Source of the DNA: Candidatus Hebobacteria bacterium | GTDB lineage: Bacteria; Armatimonadota; Hebobacteria; Hebobacterales; Hebobacteraceae | DNA length: 37,730 nucleotides | Assembly: GCA_029821495.1 (NCBI GenBank) | Contig: JALGTG010000016.1 | Coordinates: 1-37,730, forward strand | Reading direction: 5' to 3' | Shown: positions 16,318 to 27,633 of the stretch, one piece after another | Layout of the letters: every line of letters begins with the position of its first letter | How positions within the stretch are numbered: the stretch's first letter is position 1 | Program-made: the position numbers and the translations under genes | Notes under the pieces: generated by a model | Database searches by the model: none | What the model was told of the DNA's origin: nothing | What the model saw: only the letters and a program-made list of their open reading frames with translations

Positions 16318-17241
16318 TTATCCCTCCACCTGCCACTTCGCCGCTGCCAGCGTGTTCCGCAGCAGTATCGCCGTCGTCACCACCCCCACTCCGCCCGGCA
16401 CCGGCGTGATGGCCGCCACCTTCTCCTTCGCGCCCTCGAAATCCACATCCCCGTACGTCTTCGTCTTCCCCGTCTCCTCGTCTTTCACCCGGATCGTTGC
16501 CACGTCAATCACGATCGCGCCCGGCTTCAGCATATCTCCCGAGATCAGCCCTGGCTTCACCCCCACCGCCGTCACCAGGATATCCGCCCGCCGCGTATGG
16601 GCCGCCAGGTCGCCCCGCTCGCTCGTCCCGATATGGCACACCGTCACCGTCGCCCCCGCCAGCCTGTCCGTCTTCCCCTCCGCATCGGCCGTGATGTACT
16701 TGTCCACCAGCAGCAGTGCCGCCGGCTTCCCCACAATCTCGCTGCTCCCAACCACCACCACTTCCTTCCCGTACGCGTCAACACCCGACGCCCGCACCAG
16801 CTCGATCACGCTCATCGCCGTGCATGGTGCCAGCCGCGGCTGCCCCAGAACGACCCGGCCCAGGTTGGCCGGACTCACCCCGTCCACATCCTTCCGCGGA
16901 TCAATCAGCGCCTGCGCCGCCGCCCCGTCCAGCCCCTTCGGCACCGGCATCAGCAGCAGCAGGCCGTGAACGCTCTCGTCCGCGTTACATCGCGCGATCG
17001 CCGCCTCCAGATCGGCCTGCGAGGTGTCCCCCGCAAGCTGATCGAGTTCATACCCGATCCCAACTGCCGCGCACGCCTTCTCCTGCGCGCCGGCGTAGAA
17101 CTTCGCCCCCGGATTGTCCCCAGCCAGTATCGCCACCAGCTTCGGGCTGACACCCTTCGCCTTCAGCCCCTCCACCTCGGCCTTCACGCCCGCGCGGATC
17201 TCCTCCGCAATCGGCTTCCCCTCCAGCAGCTTTGCACTCAC
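16318..17241 (-). CDS. folD: Methylene-THF dehydrogenase (FolD) with altered cyclohydrolase site
   Basis: 307 residues of the FolD family, which oxidises or forms 5,10-methylene-THF with NAD(P). The substrate segment reads AGDNPGAKFYAGAQEKAC; aligned on E. coli FolD (GDNPASQIYVASKRKAC) the catalytic lysine four residues after the tyrosine is Gln. The glutamine of the usual VQLPLP strand is Leu (LLLLMPVP). The aspartate of KDVDG and the nucleotide loop GSSEIVGKPAA are kept. The lysine is known to be needed for the cyclohydrolase step, so this protein is probably only a dehydrogenase; the upstream fchA would do the other step. The GTG start overlaps the fchA stop (GTGA). Confidence 0.93.
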   Translation of the reverse strand: MSAKLLEGKPIAEEIRAGVKAEVEGLKAKGVSPKLVAILAGDNPGAKFYAGAQEKACAAVGIGYELDQLAGDTSQADLEAAIARCNADESVHGLLLLMPVPKGLDGAAAQALIDPRKDVDGVSPANLGRVVLGQPRLAPCTAMSVIELVRASGVDAYGKEVVVVGSSEIVGKPAALLLVDKYITADAEGKTDRLAGATVTVCHIGTSERGDLAAHTRRADILVTAVGVKPGLISGDMLKPGAIVIDVATIRVKDEETGKTKTYGDVDFEGAKEKVAAITPVPGGVGVVTTAILLRNTLAAAKWQVEG

Positions 17242-17879
17242 TCTCCCTCACCTTTCATACGCCGATTCACCTTCTCCCACACCTCCCCCGCCAGCCGCCT
17301 CCCCGCATCCAGCCGCGGCGCCATCTCCTGCCGGCACTCCGCGTTGTAGCCATCATCCTTGATATAGGCCAGGTTGATCTCCACGTTCAGTGCCGCGCAC
17401 TCCATGGCCGCCAGCGCGAACTTCGCCGCCACCCCCACGTCGGTAATCAGATTCGGGTTCCCCTTCTCCACCAGCTCCGACGCGATCTCCAACACCCTAT
17501 GACAGGCCCCCACCGCTGCCCTCGGCACCTCCGCCGCCCCCTTCAGTGCCTCCTGCATCGCCGCCCGTCGCGCCGACTTCTGCTCCTCCGTCTCCCGCGG
17601 CATCTTCTGCGCCGCCGCGACCTCGCCATAGGCCTCCGTATCGGCCTGGGTTAGCCGCTCCAGCTCCCCCCGCAGCCGCTCCGACTCCCCGAGCAGACCC
17701 CGAACATCCTCCTCCACATCCGCGAACTTCTCCCTCCCCACCGTGAAGTTCCCCACCATGCTGTTCAGCGCCGAGCCCAGCGCCCCAACCAGCGCCGCCG
17801 CACTGCCCCCTCCGGGGGTCGCCCCCCCGGACGCAAGCGCATCTGTATACGTCCTCAACGGCTCCTCAAGATATCCCAT
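17238..17879 (-). CDS. fchA: Methenyltetrahydrofolate cyclohydrolase (FTCD-C family)
   Basis: 213 residues from the ATG at 17879. A much longer in-frame extension exists, but it runs through palindromic repeats and fhs coding sequence and was rejected. FchA opens 5,10-methenyl-THF to 10-formyl-THF, or the reverse in acetogenesis, and is an all-helical protein of the formiminotransferase-cyclodeaminase C-terminal family. The glycine-rich N-terminal motif LASGGATPGGGSAAALVGAL is diagnostic. GKGNPNLITDVG-like sequence (EKGNPNLITDVGVAAKFAL) and ALNVEINLAYIKD near the C terminus also fit. It overlaps folD by four bases, and the two proteins probably act in series. Confidence 0.92.
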   Translation of the reverse strand: MGYLEEPLRTYTDALASGGATPGGGSAAALVGALGSALNSMVGNFTVGREKFADVEEDVRGLLGESERLRGELERLTQADTEAYGEVAAAQKMPRETEEQKSARRAAMQEALKGAAEVPRAAVGACHRVLEIASELVEKGNPNLITDVGVAAKFALAAMECAALNVEINLAYIKDDGYNAECRQEMAPRLDAGRRLAGEVWEKVNRRMKGEGE

Positions 17880-17890
17880 ACTGCCTCTCT

Positions 17891-17944
17891 GTTCGGCAGG
17901 AGCTTGTCTCCTGCCACTGTAGGGCGGGGTCTCCGCGCCCCGCC
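17891..17944. repeat. Two palindromic repeats between fhs and fchA
   Basis: Two adjacent hairpins fill almost the whole fhs-fchA gap. 17891-17915 begins GTTC and pairs GGCAGGAG with CTCCTGCC. 17918-17944 begins TGTAG and pairs GGCGGGG with CCCCGCC. The same two types occur together inside hypD (24261-24321). Neither has a T-tract on either strand. Confidence 0.8.
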
Positions 17945-17950
17945 ACCCTG

Positions 17951-19645
17951 CTAGAACAACCCCACTACACGACCCTCGCTGTCTATGTCCACCTTCAGCG
18001 CAGCCGGCTTGCTCGGCAGCCCCGGCATCGTGCTGAATGTCCCCAGCAGCGGGTACAGGAACCCCGCGCCCGCGCTCGGCCGGATATCCCTCACCGGCAC
18101 GCGGAATCCCGTCGGCCGGCCTTTCAAGTTCGAATCGTGTGACAGCGACAGGTGCGTCTTCGCCATACAGATCGGCAGCTTGTCCAGCCCCCACCGCGTG
18201 AATGTCTCGATCTTGCGCTCCGCCACCCGATCGTAGTCCACGCCGTCCGCGCCGTAGATCTTCATCGCGATCGCCTCGATCTTCTCCTTGATCGAAGCCT
18301 CGTCCGGGTAGAGCAGCTTGAAGTCCGACGGCTTCTCACACGCCTCGGCCACCGCCTCCGCAAGCTCTGTGCCGCCCTCGCCGCCCTTCGCCCACACCTC
18401 CGAGAGATACGCCCCCTCCGCCCCCGCCGCCACCGCGCGCTCCCGGATCAGCTCCACCTCCGCGTCCGTATCCTCCGTGAACCGGTTCACCGCCACCACC
18501 ACCGGCACGCCGAACAACCGCGCGTTCTCTACATGCTTCTCCAGGTTCGCGCACCCCTTCGCCAGCGCCGGCAAGTTCTCTGCCACCAGCTCCGGCGGCA
18601 GCGGCTTCCCGGGCCTCACGTTCCCCAGCCCTCCGTGCATCTTAAGCGCCCGCACAGTCGCAACGATCACCACACAGTCCGGCACCAGCCCGCTCACGCG
18701 GCACTTGATGTTAAGGAACTTCTCCATCCCGCAGTCCGCTCCGAACCCCGACTCCGTCACCACATAGTCCGCCAGCTTCAACGCAAGCCGATCCGCGATA
18801 ATGGACGAGTTCCCGTGTGCGATGTTCGCGAACGGCCCCGCATGCACGAACACCGGCGTGTTCTCCAGCGTCTGCATCAGCGTCGGCATCAGCGCGTCCT
18901 TCATCAGCACGCACATCGCTCCCGCGGCCCCCAGCTGCTCCGCCGTCACCGGCTCCCCCTCATACGTTTCGGCTACGATGATCCGTCCCAGACGCTCCCG
19001 CAGATCTCTCAGATCGGTGGCCAGCGCCAGGATCGCCATCACCTCGCTCGCCACCGAGATGTCGAATCCCGTCTCCCGCGGCACCCGCGTCTGCCCGCCC
19101 AGCCCCGACACGATGTTGTACACCCCCCACTTGTCGTTAAGGTCGATCACCCGCCGCCACGAGATCGTTCGCGGATCAATGTTCAGCTCGTTCCCGTGCT
19201 TCAAGTGTGCGTCGACCATCGCCGCCAGCAGATTATTCGTGATGCTCACCGCATGCACGTCCCCCGTCAAGTGGAGGTTGAAGTCCTCCATCGGCACCAC
19301 CTGTGAATGTCCCCCGCCGGCCGCCCCGCCCTTGATCCCGAACACCGGACCCAGGCTCGGCTGTCGGATGCACGTCATCACTTTCTTGCCCACCACCCCC
19401 AGCGCCTGAGAAACCCCAATGGTAGTGACCGTCTTCCCCTCCCCCAGCGGCGTCGGCGTGATCGCCGTTACGTCGATGTACTTCCCCGTCGGCCTATCCT
19501 TGAGCCCCGCCAGGACGTCGAGGTGAACCTTCGCCTTCCACTTACCGTACAAGTCTAGGTCGTCTTCCTCAATCCCGACCGCCTCTGCAATCTGCAGGAT
19601 CGGCTTCATCGTCGCCGCTTGGGCGATTTCAAGGTCGCTCTTCAT
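17951..19645 (-). CDS. fhs: Formate--tetrahydrofolate ligase
   Basis: 564 residues, the normal size of bacterial formyl-THF synthetase. It activates formate with ATP to 10-formyl-THF, the entry step of the methyl branch. The P-loop-like TPLGEGKTVTTIGVSQALG lies near residue 65. Other family segments are RQPSLGPVFGIKGGAAGGGH, the LTGDVHAVSITNNLLAAMVD stretch, GETGFDISVASE-type sequence (PRETGFDISVASEVMAILAL), VTESGFGADCGMEKFLNIKC and LPICMAKTHLSLSHD. It lies 51 nt after acsA. No formate dehydrogenase is in the window, so formate must come from elsewhere in the genome or from outside. Confidence 0.97.
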   Translation of the reverse strand: MKSDLEIAQAATMKPILQIAEAVGIEEDDLDLYGKWKAKVHLDVLAGLKDRPTGKYIDVTAITPTPLGEGKTVTTIGVSQALGVVGKKVMTCIRQPSLGPVFGIKGGAAGGGHSQVVPMEDFNLHLTGDVHAVSITNNLLAAMVDAHLKHGNELNIDPRTISWRRVIDLNDKWGVYNIVSGLGGQTRVPRETGFDISVASEVMAILALATDLRDLRERLGRIIVAETYEGEPVTAEQLGAAGAMCVLMKDALMPTLMQTLENTPVFVHAGPFANIAHGNSSIIADRLALKLADYVVTESGFGADCGMEKFLNIKCRVSGLVPDCVVIVATVRALKMHGGLGNVRPGKPLPPELVAENLPALAKGCANLEKHVENARLFGVPVVVAVNRFTEDTDAEVELIRERAVAAGAEGAYLSEVWAKGGEGGTELAEAVAEACEKPSDFKLLYPDEASIKEKIEAIAMKIYGADGVDYDRVAERKIETFTRWGLDKLPICMAKTHLSLSHDSNLKGRPTGFRVPVRDIRPSAGAGFLYPLLGTFSTMPGLPSKPAALKVDIDSEGRVVGLF

Positions 19646-22252: not shown

Positions 22253-23404
22253 TCAGCAAATCCGCGGCATCTGCTCCCCAACGTGACGGTCCAGAATCCG
22301 CCGCGTCCCCAACACCGTCCGCAGCAGCACCCTCCCCCCGCGGCCCTCGCTCACCCGCCCGATCACCGCCGCCTCTCCGCCCAACGCGTGCCCCCGCAGC
22401 ACACCCAAGGCCGCCTCCGCCTCCCCCTCTCCCACCATCACCACCATCTTCCCCTCATTCGCGGCATACAACGCGTCCAGCCCCAGCAGCTCGCACGCCG
22501 CCGCCACGCTCTCCCGCACCGGCACCGCCGACTCCTCGATCTCGACCTCCACCCTCGACTGCCGCGCGATCTCGTTCAAAGCCGTCGCCAGCCCTCCCCG
22601 CGTCGGATCTCGCAGCACGTGCACACCAGATACGGCCGCCAGCAGCTCCGCCACCATACCTGCCAGCGGCGCGCAATCGCTCACAATCGCAGACTCGAAC
22701 TCCAGCCCCTCCCTCTTCGACAACACCGCCAGCCCGTGATCCCCGACGGGGCCGCTTACCAGCACCACATCCCCCGGTCGCGCCCCGGCCCCTGAAACCT
22801 CCACCCCGTCCGCCACCTCGCCCACCCCGGAAGTCGTGACATACACCCGATCCGCGCTCCCCACCGGCACCACCTTCGTATTCACCCCGGCCTCCGCCGC
22901 CGTCCCAGCCATCGACTCCACCACCCGCTCCAGCTCCGAAATCAGCAGCCCCTCCTCCAGGATGAAGCTCGCGCTCAACGCCACCGGCCGCGCCCCCGCC
23001 GCCGCCAGATCGTTCACCGTCCCACACACCGCCAGCTTCCCAATGTCCCCACCCGGGAAGAAGATCGGATCAACCACGAACGCATCCGTCGTGAACACCA
23101 AGCGAGTGCTGTTCTGTAGGGCGGGTATGTCGGCCGCCGAAGGCGGACGCATGCCCGCCGGCCGTTGCCGTTCTCCGCGTCGGGCCTGGCCATGCCCGCC
23201 GGCCGTTCCCGTAGGGCAGGAGCGTGTCTCCTGCCCACCTCCCCCCCGTTCGGCAGGAGCTTGCTCCTGCCCAAAGAGGATCCGCGCGCTATCATCCCCC
23301 GCCGGCTCCCCCGTCCCCAGACGTGACACAAACACGCCCTCCACCAACTCCCCCATCAACTCCCCCCCATCCCCATGCGCCAGCAGCACCCGCTCCTCGC
23401 TCAC
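22253..23404 (-). CDS. hypE: Hydrogenase maturation protein HypE with repeat-derived insert
   Basis: 383 residues, about 50 more than usual. HypE dehydrates the carbamoyl group received from HypF to the cyanide ligand of the [NiFe] site, ending on its C-terminal cysteine (here PRIC). The start is a GTG at 23404 overlapping the hypD stop (GTGA), with AGGAG 8 nt upstream. The N terminus ERVLLAHGDGGELMGELVEG and later FTTDAFVVDPIFFPGGDIGK, SASFILEEGLL and VLRDPTRGGLATAL are typical. Residues about 43-97 are encoded by palindromic repeats inserted in frame between DDSARI and RLVFTTD. The family's TGDTKVV motif is reduced to NTKVV after EAG, a loss in the nucleotide site. Confidence 0.92.
   Translation of the reverse strand: MSEERVLLAHGDGGELMGELVEGVFVSRLGTGEPAGDDSARILFGQEQAPAERGGGGQETRSCPTGTAGGHGQARRGERQRPAGMRPPSAADIPALQNSTRLVFTTDAFVVDPIFFPGGDIGKLAVCGTVNDLAAAGARPVALSASFILEEGLLISELERVVESMAGTAAEAGVNTKVVPVGSADRVYVTTSGVGEVADGVEVSGAGARPGDVVLVSGPVGDHGLAVLSKREGLEFESAIVSDCAPLAGMVAELLAAVSGVHVLRDPTRGGLATALNEIARQSRVEVEIEESAVPVRESVAAACELLGLDALYAANEGKMVVMVGEGEAEAALGVLRGHALGGEAAVIGRVSEGRGGRVLLRTVLGTRRILDRHVGEQMPRIC
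23111..23272. repeat. Array of palindromic repeats inside hypE
   Basis: Four elements lie end to end: 23111-23165 (TGTAGGGCGGG lead, long stem closing with CATGCCCGCC, suffix GGCCGTT), a degenerate relative to 23207, 23208-23236 (GGGCAGGAG with CTCCTGCCC) and 23247-23272 (GGCAGGAG with CTCCTGCC). The whole tract is free of stops in the hypE frame and equals about 55 codons. Confidence 0.8.
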
Positions 23405-24564
23405 CGATCCATCTCCTGCCCTCGATACCGATACCACGCCTGACACGCCCCCTCGCTCGACACCATACACGCCCCCACCGGCCTCCTCGGCATGCACTCC
23501 CTCCCGAACAGCCCGCACTCCGGTGGCTCTATCGCTCCCCTCAGCACATCCCCGCACCGGCACCCGGCCGGCTCCGCCGACGCAGGCAACTTCACCTCGA
23601 ACCGCCGCGCCGCATCGAACTCCGCCAGCCCCTCCGCCAGCTCATACCCGCTCCCCGCTATCGTCCCCAGCCCCCTCCAACGCGTGTCCGCCACCCGGAA
23701 CACCTCTGCCATCATCTCTTGCGCCTTCCGGTTCCCCTCCGGTCGCACCGCGCGCTTGTACTCAATCTCCACCTCCGCGCGCCCCTCCGCGATCTGCGCC
23801 AGCAGCATCCGCACTGCCCCCAACACATCCGCCGCCTCGAATCCCGCCACCACACACGGCTTCCCTGGCCGGGCAGGCCCCCGCGCCGCCACCGGCCCAT
23901 AGGCCTCGCTTCCTATAATCACGCTCACATGCCCCGGACAGATGAACCCATCGATCTTGACATCCGACTCGAGCAGAGCCGTCATCGCTGGCGGAATCAG
24001 CTTGTGCGCGCACAGCACCGAGAAGTTCCCCAGTCCCCTCCGCTTCGCTTCCAGTATCGCGAGCGCTACCGCCGGCGCCGTCGTCTCAAAGCCGATCCCG
24101 AAGAACACCACCTCCTTCGCCGGCTCCCGCGCCGCCGCCTCCACCGCGTCCATCGGCGAGTATACGACCAGCACCTCCGCCCCCTCCGCCCGCGCCTGCT
24201 CCAGGCTCTTCTCCGTCCCCGGCACCCGCACCATATCCCCGAACGTCGCCAGCCTCACACTGTAGGGCGGGGTCTCCGCGCCCCGCCGTCCGGTCCGTTC
24301 GGCAGGAGCTTGCCTCCTGCCACTTCCCCCCAGCGCGATGAAGAAGTCAATCTGCTCCTGCGGAGTCACACACACCGGGCACCCCGGCCCCGAAATCAAC
24401 CTCACCCCCTCCGGCAGCGCCTCCCGTATCCCGTGCCGCGCAATCGCCACCGTGTGCGTCCCACACACCTCCATCAACGTCGCTGGCGGAGCATCCATCC
24501 TCCTCAACCGCTCCGCCATCCTCCGCACCAACTCCGGTCGCCTAAGCTCGCTCAGCCTATCCAT
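23401..24564 (-). CDS. hypD: Hydrogenase maturation protein HypD with repeat-derived insert
   Basis: 387 residues, about 20 more than usual. HypD is the [4Fe-4S] scaffold on which, with HypC, the Fe(CN)2CO unit is built. Seen are MEVCGTHTVAIARHGI (first essential cysteine), LISGPGCPVCVTPQEQID, ATFGDMVRVPG, FFGIGFETTAP, FICPGHVSVIIGSEAY and cluster cysteines near the C terminus (AGCRCGD, PPECGLFGRECMPRRPVGAC). Residues about 80-102 come from two palindromic repeats between FFIALG and VRLATFGD, on a loop between conserved blocks. The ATG at 24564 follows a repeat by only a few bases. Its stop overlaps the hypE GTG start. Confidence 0.93.
   Translation of the reverse strand: MDRLSELRRPELVRRMAERLRRMDAPPATLMEVCGTHTVAIARHGIREALPEGVRLISGPGCPVCVTPQEQIDFFIALGGSGRRQAPAERTGRRGAETPPYSVRLATFGDMVRVPGTEKSLEQARAEGAEVLVVYSPMDAVEAAAREPAKEVVFFGIGFETTAPAVALAILEAKRRGLGNFSVLCAHKLIPPAMTALLESDVKIDGFICPGHVSVIIGSEAYGPVAARGPARPGKPCVVAGFEAADVLGAVRMLLAQIAEGRAEVEIEYKRAVRPEGNRKAQEMMAEVFRVADTRWRGLGTIAGSGYELAEGLAEFDAARRFEVKLPASAEPAGCRCGDVLRGAIEPPECGLFGRECMPRRPVGACMVSSEGACQAWYRYRGQEMDR
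24261..24321. repeat. Palindromic repeat pair inside hypD
   Basis: 24261-24287 pairs GGCGGGG with CCCCGCC after TGTAG; 24297-24321 pairs GGCAGGAG with CTCCTGCC after GTTC. It is the same pair, in reverse order, as the fhs-fchA gap. In the hypD frame they read GRRQAPAE and RGAETPPYS. Confidence 0.85.
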
Positions 24565-24568
24565 TGCC

Positions 24569-24714
24569 GTTCTGTAGGGCGGGCACACCGATGCCCGCCG
24601 GCCGTTCTGTTGGGCAGGGGCTTGCCCCTGCCATTGTAGGGCGGGGTCTCCTGACCCCGCCGCCTCCCCTCGTTCGGCAGGAGCTTGTCCGCCTCGGGCG
24701 GGCTTGCCTCCTGC
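24569..24714. repeat. Repeat array filling the hypC-hypD gap
   Basis: Four elements occupy nearly the whole gap. 24569-24605 has TGTAGGGCGGG and GCCCGCC with suffix GGCCGTT. 24605-24632 pairs GGCAGGGG with CCCCTGCC. 24635-24661 pairs GCGGGGTC with GACCCCGC. 24672-24714 is a GGCAGGAG/CTCCTGCC element whose loop is split by a second small hairpin (CCGCC-TCG-GGCGG) flanked by GCTTG on both sides. Confidence 0.8.
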
Positions 24715-25009: not shown

Positions 25010-25099
25010 TCATTCTGAGCCACACGCCAATAATCCCGCCGCCGCAACCACCGCCTGCCCCAAACTCATCCCCCCATCATTCGGCGGTACCTCCCTTCT
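25010..25099 (-). pseudogene. Orphan second copy of the hypF 3' end
   Basis: This stretch encodes REVPPNDGGMSLGQAVVAA followed by AGLLACGSE and a TGA. The last 18 residues of the shared block match the real HypF C terminus exactly. It lies just downstream of the hypF stop, beyond a palindromic repeat, and in another frame relative to hypF, so it cannot be read through. Eleven of the 18 shared codons differ and every difference is synonymous. There is no ribosome site or usable start. It is best called a gene fragment left by recombination with another hypF. Confidence 0.7.
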
Positions 25100-25100
25100 T

Positions 25101-25124
25101 GTTGGGCAGGAGCTTGCTCCTGCC
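25101..25124. repeat. Palindromic repeat directly after hypF
   Basis: GTTGG lead-in with GGCAGGAG pairing to CTCCTGCC. It sits between the hypF stop at 25126 and the orphan hypF tail, marking the junction of the duplication. Confidence 0.85.
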
Positions 25125-25125
25125 A

Positions 25126-27633
25126 CTATCGCCGCGACGCGGCAACGACGGCCTGTCCGAGGCTCATCCCTCCGTCGTTCGGAGGGACCTCGCGATGGAC
25201 ATGGCCCCTCAGTCCCTCCTCCTCCAGCAGCTCCACCAACCTCCCCACCAGCCGCGCATTCTGCATCACCCCGCCGCACAGCACCACATCCCTCGGCCCG
25301 CCTTCCTCATGCAGCCGCCGGCACGCCTCCACCGTAAACCGCGCCACCGTCTCATGAAACCGCCCCGCAATCTCGCCTCGATCTACCCCCTGCTCAACAT
25401 CCTCCACCACCCCCCTCACCACCGCCCTCGCATCAACCACACCATCCACAATCTCATACTCGTACGCTGTAGGGCGGGCATGCCCATGCCCGCCGGCCGT
25501 TGCCGTTCTGTAGGGCGGGGATGTCTCTGCATCCCCGCCGCGCCGTTCTCTAGGGCGGCCATACGCCGCAGGCGCATCGCCGCCGCTCCCCGCTGTTCGG
25601 CAGGAGCTTGCTCCTGCCCCTGTGGGAGCCCGGCCCTCCGGGCGATTGGCTGCCCCGGCCATCCCCTCCAACTCCATCGCCGGCTGCCCCTCATACGTCG
25701 CCTCCGGCGTGCACCCCAACATCGCCGCCACCGCATCGAAGAACCGCCCCATGCTCGAACACGCCGGGCTGTTGATCCCCCGCTCCACCTGCCTCCCCAC
25801 CACCCGCATCTCCTCATCCTCTATATACGGCATCAACACCCGCGCCTTCGCCACCCCCTCCTCCGGCCCAAACGCATCAACCAGGTGGCTCAACGCCATC
25901 CGCGCCGGCCGCCGAATCGCCCCCTCCCCGCCCGGCATCGGCACCGCCCGCAGATGCCCCGCCCGCTCGAACCTCCTCCGGTCCGCAACCAGAATCTCCC
26001 CTCCCCACACCGTCCCATCCGCCCCGTATCCCGTCCCATCATAGGCCACACCAATCACCGGCCCCTCCAGCCCCAGCTCCGCCATCACACTCACCACATG
26101 CGCGTGATGATGCTGCACCCCCACCAGCCTCACCCCCTCCAGCGACTTCGCCCACTGCGTCGAGAGATACCCCGGATGCAGATCATGGGCCACCACCTCC
26201 GGCTTCGTCTCGAACAGCTCCTCGAAATGCCCCACCGCCCGCCCGAAGTACTCCAGCACCTCCGCCGTATCGAGATCCCCGATGTGCTGGCTCAGAATCG
26301 CCTCCCCCGCCCGCACTAAGCAGAACGCGTTCTTCGTCTGCCCGCCCACCGCCAGCACCGGCGGACCCTCATAGTCCACCGTCACCGACCGCGGCACATA
26401 GCCCCGCGCCCGCCGCACCGGAATCACCAGCTCGCCTTCCACGCGTATCACCGAGTCATCACACGGCACCGCGATCTCTCGGTTGTGCGACAGGATGTGA
26501 TCCGCAATCGGCCCCAGCTTCACGCGCGCCTCTTCATCCTCGTGGATGATCGGCTCCTCCGCCAGGTTCCCGCTCGTCATCACCAGCGCCGGCGGCGACT
26601 TCTCCAGCAGCAGCCGATGCAGCGGCGTGTACGGCAGCATCACCCCTACCGTATTCTGCCGCGGCGCAATCCCCTCCGCCAGCCCTCCATCCTCCTTGGC
26701 GGACATGATCACCACCGGACTCTCCGGCGACATTAGTAGTTGCTCCGCGCGTTCCCCCACCTCCGCCACCCGCCGCGCCTCCGCCACATCCCGCACCATG
26801 ATCGCGAACGGCTTCAGCCCCCGTCCCTTCCGCGCGCGCAGCGTCTCCACCGCCTCCGCGTTCCGCGCATCGCACGCCAGGTGATATCCCCCCAACCCCT
26901 TGATCGCCACCACCTTCCCCTCCCCCAGCAACCGCGCCGCCTCCTCTAGGGCGCGCATATGGGTCGGGCAGTAGCTTGTCTCCTGCCCATGCATTGGTTC
27001 GGCAGGAGCTTGCCTCCTGCCATCTTCTGTAGGGCGGGGTCTCTGTGCCCCGCCGCTTTCCTCCAGTATCACCTCCGGCCCGCACTTCGGACACGCCACC
27101 GGCTCCGCGTGGAAACGCCTGTCTCCGGGGTCGCCATACTCGCGCCTGCACTCCTCACACATCTCGAACGCCGCCATCGTCGTCTGCGGCCGGTCGTACG
27201 GAATCCCGCGCACGATACTGAACCGCGGCCCGCAGTTCGTGCAGTTCGTGAACGCATACCCGAAGCGCCGGTCGTGCGCATCAGCGATCTCCCGCGCGCA
27301 CTCCTCGCACACCGCCACATCCGGCGGAATCAGCGCCGTAGGCCGTGGCGCGCCGACACCCTCCACGATGCGGAACCCCTCCGCCACCACCGGCTCCCCC
27401 TCCCGCGCCTCCACCGACGCGATCCGTGCCAGCGGCGGCGCCTCCCTCTCCAGGCGCCGCTCAAACTCCTCCACCCGCGGCCCATCCCCCTCCACCTCAA
27501 TGATCACCCCGGCCGCTGTGTTCCTCACCGACCCGGACAGGCCCAGCGATGCGGCCAGCCGGTAGACGAACGGCCGGAAACCCACTCCCTGGACAGTTCC
27601 CTTCACTCGCACTTCGCGTCCGGTAGTCTTCAC
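25126..27633 (-). CDS. hypF: Carbamoyltransferase HypF with two repeat-derived inserts
   Basis: 835 residues against a usual 750-780. HypF makes carbamoyl-AMP from carbamoyl phosphate and ATP and loads HypE. Domains in order: acylphosphatase-like (1-90; TVQGVGFRPFVYRLA), zinc fingers (about 109-184; CEECAREI, NCTNCGPRF, CEECRREYG, CPKCGPE), YrdC-like (about 230-420; VVAIKGLGGYHLACDARN) and Kae1-like (VQHHHAHVVSVMAE, GVAYDGTGYGADGTVWGGE, SSMGRFFDAVAAMLG). Residues about 193-229, between fingers and YrdC, and about 661-722, between MELEGMAG and AYEYEIV, are repeat-encoded and account for the extra length. GTG start; the ribosome site is weak. The tail EVPPNDGGMSLGQAVVAASRR is repeated downstream. 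Confidence 0.94.
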   Translation of the reverse strand: MKTTGREVRVKGTVQGVGFRPFVYRLAASLGLSGSVRNTAAGVIIEVEGDGPRVEEFERRLEREAPPLARIASVEAREGEPVVAEGFRIVEGVGAPRPTALIPPDVAVCEECAREIADAHDRRFGYAFTNCTNCGPRFSIVRGIPYDRPQTTMAAFEMCEECRREYGDPGDRRFHAEPVACPKCGPEVILEESGGAQRPRPTEDGRRQAPAEPMHGQETSYCPTHMRALEEAARLLGEGKVVAIKGLGGYHLACDARNAEAVETLRARKGRGLKPFAIMVRDVAEARRVAEVGERAEQLLMSPESPVVIMSAKEDGGLAEGIAPRQNTVGVMLPYTPLHRLLLEKSPPALVMTSGNLAEEPIIHEDEEARVKLGPIADHILSHNREIAVPCDDSVIRVEGELVIPVRRARGYVPRSVTVDYEGPPVLAVGGQTKNAFCLVRAGEAILSQHIGDLDTAEVLEYFGRAVGHFEELFETKPEVVAHDLHPGYLSTQWAKSLEGVRLVGVQHHHAHVVSVMAELGLEGPVIGVAYDGTGYGADGTVWGGEILVADRRRFERAGHLRAVPMPGGEGAIRRPARMALSHLVDAFGPEEGVAKARVLMPYIEDEEMRVVGRQVERGINSPACSSMGRFFDAVAAMLGCTPEATYEGQPAMELEGMAGAANRPEGRAPTGAGASSCRTAGSGGDAPAAYGRPRERRGGDAETSPPYRTATAGGHGHARPTAYEYEIVDGVVDARAVVRGVVEDVEQGVDRGEIAGRFHETVARFTVEACRRLHEEGGPRDVVLCGGVMQNARLVGRLVELLEEEGLRGHVHREVPPNDGGMSLGQAVVAASRR
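25468..25650. repeat. Repeat array inside the 3' half of hypF
   Basis: Five elements in tandem: 25468-25501 (GGCGGGCATG with CATGCCCGCC, suffix GGCCGTT), 25505-25540 (GGCGGGGATG with CATCCCCGCC), 25544-25583 (GGCGGC-type long stem), 25595-25618 (GGCAGGAG with CTCCTGCC) and about 25621-25650 (TGTGGGAGCCCGG with CCGGGC). All are open in the hypF frame over some 60 codons. Confidence 0.85.
26946..27055. repeat. Repeat array inside the 5' part of hypF
   Basis: A degenerate TAGGGCGCGCAT element, 26967-26989 (GGGCAG...CTGCCC), 26998-27022 (GGCAGGAG with CTCCTGCC) and 27029-27055 (GGCGGGG with CCCCGCC). In the hypF frame they read peptides such as GRRQAPAEP and GQETSYCPT, stop-free, between the last zinc finger and the YrdC domain. 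Confidence 0.85.

Follow-up and report, generated by a model that had tools for sequence, protein, structure and literature searches.

Antisense, in-frame GTAG-type REP elements within a hypE gene of Candidatus Hebobacteria

REP elements of the GTAG type have been described inside coding genes, either single or clustered, and some of the clusters encode 43-82 residues (Di Nocera et al. 2013, PMC3733652). The targets of such intragenic elements include DnaE2 and DnaE, and head-tail REP dimers are rare (PMC3733652). In the REP-RAYT systems or REPtrons described by Nunvar et al. 2010 (PMC2817692), a transposase gene is accompanied by two inverted flanking REPs with a GTAG head, and the REPs are described as mostly extragenic. 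A third precedent is provided by the Rickettsia palindromic elements (RPE), which, according to the short account given where they are cited in PMC3733652, are palindromes read in frame in many unrelated genes and tolerated there. Here we describe a case found in a 37,730-nucleotide stretch of Candidatus Hebobacteria DNA, hereafter called the window, in which an array of REP elements lies inside the hydrogenase maturation gene hypE. The gene and the array are as follows:

22253..23404, minus strand: hypE coding sequence with a likely GTG start, 383 amino acids, ending in PRIC; assigned by TIGR02124, the start used by relatives and alignment.
23111..23275, plus strand (heads on the plus strand, antisense to the gene): REP array in hypE, 165 nt, a multiple of three.

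The encoded protein scores 391.9 bits against the NCBIfam hypE equivalog profile TIGR02124, well above the cut-off of 251.6, and its C-terminal end reads MPRIC. Translation probably starts from the GTG at 23404, where close relatives begin with VSEERVLLAHGDGG or a near match. This codon is residue 54 of a longer open reading frame that opens at 23563 (22253-23563) and has 53 residues 5' of the real hypE start.

The original prediction held that this HypE is about 50 residues too long, with the excess in the loop before the FTTD strand, and that four palindromic repeats without a stop codon encode the excess. Both claims are borne out. The loop that runs from GDDSA to FTTD has 64 residues in the window HypE vs 9-18 (median 11) in all other aligned homologues, which amount to more than 100 sequences; about 53 extra residues are thus confirmed between GDDSAR and FTTD. 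The insert is unique to the window HypE in that alignment, and the relatives lack the residues in question instead of conserving them in a repeat-free form. Compared with the 335 codons of hypE in the closest relative (L050, CP070816), the 383 codons found here can be accounted for by a gain of 53 (the insert) and a loss of 5 (a separate deletion). The dN/dS ratio of HypE against this relative is 0.19, which indicates purifying selection outside the insert.

Translation of the array yields FGQEQAPAERGGGGQETRSCPTGTAGGHGQARRGERQRPAGMRPPSAADIPALQN, residues 44-98 of HypE counted from the GTG at 23404. On the coding strand the three frames are free of stops, while stops are found in two of the three frames of the other strand. 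Four hairpin units can be distinguished:

23113..23163, plus strand: REP unit 1, headed by GTAG; its long hairpin, GGCGGGTATG...CATGCCCGCC, contains an inner CCGCC-GGCGG stem and has a fold of -32.5 kcal/mol.
23176..23204, plus strand: REP unit 2, GTCG head, decayed hairpin with a fold of -11.0 kcal/mol; CATGCCCGCCGGCCGTT is common to units 1 and 2.
23208..23236, plus strand: REP unit 3, GTAG followed by GGCAGGAGCGTGTCTCCTGCC.
23245..23272, plus strand: REP unit 4, GTTC followed by GGCAGGAGCTTGCTCCTGCC.

Two simpler descriptions of the array were considered. Origin as an ordinary tandem repeat was rejected, as Tandem Repeats Finder reports nothing there. The other candidate was a transcription terminator; the array lies inside a gene that is conserved on both flanks.

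Each unit has the architecture of a REP element: an unpaired head (GTAG, GTTC or GTCG) is followed by a GC-rich hairpin of the GGC...GCC type. The window contains 17 such headed units. In an unbiased sample of 812 kb, 24 of 90 GGC[AG]GG hairpins carry a GTAG, GTTG or GTTC head, when uniform chance predicts about 0.35 for each head; many of the heads are GTTC or GTTG, which makes the consensus looser than GTAG. A 69-nt stretch of the hypE array has 52 matching places in the 3.0-Mb genome at E<=0.001, and the reversed pattern of the core motif, used as a control, has no match in any of the 41 genomes searched; hence, the matches of the array cannot be attributed to chance. The core motif itself has 36 exact matches in the genome of the window and is present in 7 of the 41 genomes, all from one order. 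Genome-wide repeat analysis was carried out on about 1 Mb sampled by contig. These sequence features identify the insert as a small array of GTAG-type REPs. A second type of repeat, represented by TTCTTCGCTTCGCTCAGAATGAC and the like, is also found in the genome (L128, L142, L213 and L241), and ILRCVQNDS-like peptides of that type occur in frame in a polymerase gene (L140).

The possibility that the array is an oddity of HypE was rejected, as the same units are found in hypD, in hypF and elsewhere. The other sites in the window are:

24261..24321, plus strand (gene on the minus strand): REP pair in frame in hypD.
25469..25618, plus strand: hypF site a, three REP units in frame.
26963..27054, plus strand: hypF site b, three REP units in frame.
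17891..17944, plus strand: intergenic REP pair between the open reading frame 17951-19645 and the FTCD_C (cyclodeaminase) gene 17238-17879.
24574..24661, plus strand: three REP units, intergenic, between hypC and hypD.
25101..25124, plus strand: one REP immediately 3' of the hypF stop codon, with a version of the hypF 3' end on either side of it.

In close relatives the sites of the inserts in hypE, in hypD and at both places in hypF are empty. All four of these window arrays keep the frame, and homology is present on either side of each; if each had one chance in three, the probability of this outcome would be 0.012. A separate observation concerns the hypF 3' end (EVPPNDGGMSLGQAVVAA), of which two copies with diverged codons flank the single REP (25037-25200). 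Recombination between two strains could have produced the duplication, or the join could be chimeric.

A plausible source of mobility exists in the same genome. Seven open reading frames encode Y1 transposases (Y1_Tnp), six of them with the HxH motif, and five of the seven genes are flanked by two inverted REP copies, as is typical of RAYT genes. The two Y1 proteins that were tested against the NCBI model NF047646 (REP_Tyr_transpos) gave 108 and 128 bits (cut-off 80), and one Y1 protein matches the solved TnpA-REP structure 4er8. Transposases from the genome itself are the probable means by which the REP elements spread.

REP units in open frames are also detected outside the window. They are found in a DNA polymerase III alpha gene (L140), in a TIGR03960-like radical SAM protein (L143), in a gene without an assigned family (L144) and in the linker between two glycosyltransferase domains (L235). 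In an order-level relative (L023), hypE has an in-frame REP too, but a different one, read as GQEARSCPTG near the C-terminus, and the polymerase genes of genomes G004 and G007 have in-frame REPs in the same linker as the genome of the window. Three genera of the family have in-frame antisense REPs in a DNA polymerase III alpha gene, in the linker that follows the PHP domain (L140 1-1434, L287 3-2861 and L291 692-4057). The in-frame count obtained outside the window is biased: an array there was taken as intragenic when it lay in an open frame, and gene calls came from a simple codon model, so that the in-frame excess is partly a matter of ascertainment.

Tight intergenic arrays were examined for genes split by a REP. 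In the four with at least one named flank (GidB/unassigned gene, GyrA/archease, aconitase/SRP54-type GTPase and PurH/SHMT), no split gene was found, and the flanks are different genes, not halves of one; in a fifth flanking pair (L194) one side gave no family. Of the REP sites checked in the nearest relative (G001, CP070816, a closed genome; L278-L286), none lies inside a gene; hence, so large a share of intragenic REPs seems to be a peculiarity of the genome of the window. This difference is left unaccounted for by the REP-insertion explanation proposed below.

When orientation was examined, arrays inside genes proved to be antisense in 10 cases and sense in 1, while those between co-directional genes are antisense in 7 and sense in 14 (Fisher p=0.003; the hypD array was counted as intragenic). 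Omission of the arrays of the unverified genes L131 and L144 leaves p=0.014. Arrays outside genes have a mean of 2.64 open frames when read antisense vs 2.10 when read sense, and openness therefore explains part of the orientation bias.

The effect of the insert on the protein was modelled with AlphaFold2. The predicted fold matches the crystal structures of HypE, including those of the HypE-HypF and HypC-HypD-HypE complexes. Confidence (pLDDT) exceeds 90 in much of the HypE core and falls below 50 over most of residues 48-97. The simplest reading of the model is that the insert forms a disordered surface loop, most likely tolerated rather than selected.

The explanation that we favor, with a probability of roughly 0.88, is that the RAYT system inserted REP elements into hypE and that selection then spared the copies that preserve the frame in tolerant loops. 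REP units would have been copied or moved into the gene by a RAYT via a single-stranded intermediate, and the array may either have grown inside hypE or have arrived as a block. Its retention would be favored by a tolerant surface loop, a length that is a multiple of three and an antisense reading that is open in every frame; in other words, the array may have survived because it adds whole codons to a loop that can accommodate them and brings no antisense stop. The outcome would be a HypE protein with a disordered loop of 53 residues.

A second change in the protein was missed by the original prediction:

22880..22885, minus strand: junction of a 15-nt in-frame deletion in hypE, with D to N at GDTK; AGV|NTKVV vs QVRVICGDTKVV.

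The earlier claim that conserved motifs on both sides of the insert stay in one frame is only partly right: the single frame does continue through to PRIC, but GDTK has lost its G and D together with the preceding strand. Five residues (RVICG) are missing, and NTK stands in place of GDTK. The latter motif is kept at 109 of 109 other HypE loci examined (three of which are duplicates of one another) and is lost only here. In the structure prediction, residues 176-185 fall below a pLDDT of 50, whereas the same stretch follows a strand in an insert-free control (the HypE of a relative), in which only the C-terminal tail is below 50. Because the separate deletion removed part of the GDTK motif, production of an active HypE by the organism is in doubt. 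By its sequence the protein is a HypE by descent whose activity is uncertain; it may be impaired, and the cause need not involve REPs. An assembly error in the 15 deleted bases is also possible.

These observations lend some support to the view that hypE is decaying, in which case the array and the GDTK deletion would both be marks of relaxed selection and cyanide ligands would no longer be made. Loss of an otherwise invariant motif, poor prediction of residues 176-185 and the presence of inserts in hypD and hypF as well are consistent with decay. We consider it unlikely, however, as the frame of hypE is intact to PRIC, the dN/dS ratio is low, and the HypE score is far above the profile cut-off. 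Furthermore, the genes for the large and small [NiFe]-hydrogenase subunits and for the maturation protease look intact in the same window, and a search of the genome found no replacement HypE, the next match being 36% identical.

A quite doubtful speculation goes further than the REP-insertion explanation: RAYTs would drop antisense cassettes, open in nearly all frames, into genes as a regular source of new protein segments, and recurrent sites, for example the hyp genes and the linker of DNA polymerase III alpha, would be kept since the loops usefully alter their proteins.

An artefact of assembly or strain mixing is an improbable source of either the array or the GDTK deletion. The draft assembly is repeat-rich and consists of 317 contigs, and the doubled hypF 3' end, with its diverged codons, adjoins a REP; on the other hand, the units of the array are mutually diverged and the frame is kept, and in-frame REPs recur in further genes and in genomes that were assembled separately (in hypE of G008 and in the polymerase genes of G004 and G007). 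Co-option of the loop for a function such as binding to a HypD or HypF partner with a matching insert is very improbable: HypD, HypE and HypF, which belong to one pathway, do all carry arrays, but the insert is low in predicted order and is not conserved in relatives, unrelated genes also carry REPs, and the inserts have no peptide in common beyond the repeat itself. Lastly, very stable hairpins in the mRNA strand might suggest that mature HypE has a normal length because the segment is excised from the RNA or the protein or is bypassed by the ribosome, but this can hardly be credited: inspection of the 165 nt showed no intron or intein signature, and no removal is needed because the insert is already in frame and free of stops.

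Insertion of REP elements by a RAYT system, the reading we prefer, places the hypE array among the systems introduced above, with likenesses and differences. The resemblance to RPE is one of behavior only, namely that in-frame palindromes are tolerated in unrelated genes; the lineage is different, and the repeats described here come with RAYT genes. As in REPtrons (PMC2817692), a transposase gene lies between two inverted REPs and the head is GTAG. In contrast to them, about a fifth of the arrays found here are intragenic (in a sample partly chosen for repeats), and the heads are also GTTC and GTTG.

There is also a close likeness with the intragenic GTAG REPs of PMC3733652, which share a GTAG-type head followed by a hairpin, residence in coding genes and a DNA polymerase gene among the targets. 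They differ from the elements described here in that ours belong to Armatimonadota-affiliated MAGs and have stems of the GGCAGGAG and GGCGGG types, and that the window arrays run head-to-tail in the same direction, whereas head-tail dimers are rare in that study. Two aspects go beyond that report: three genes of one maturation pathway carry REPs, and an antisense bias was tested. A limited literature search found no report of REPs in Armatimonadota. In-frame intragenic REPs are hence already known in other bacteria, and the present array clearly adds a further case, from a lineage with no report in that search.

With this case, the range of translated REP elements now includes an uncultured lineage that has its own RAYTs. 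The case also provides a simple, testable reason for the survival of intragenic REPs, namely that in antisense orientation they mostly leave all frames open. It further yields natural insertion variants of HypD, HypE and HypF, proteins of known structure. Finally, a DNA polymerase III alpha gene is a repeated target of REPs, both in this study and, independently, in genomes already published, and this recurrence merits a proper count.
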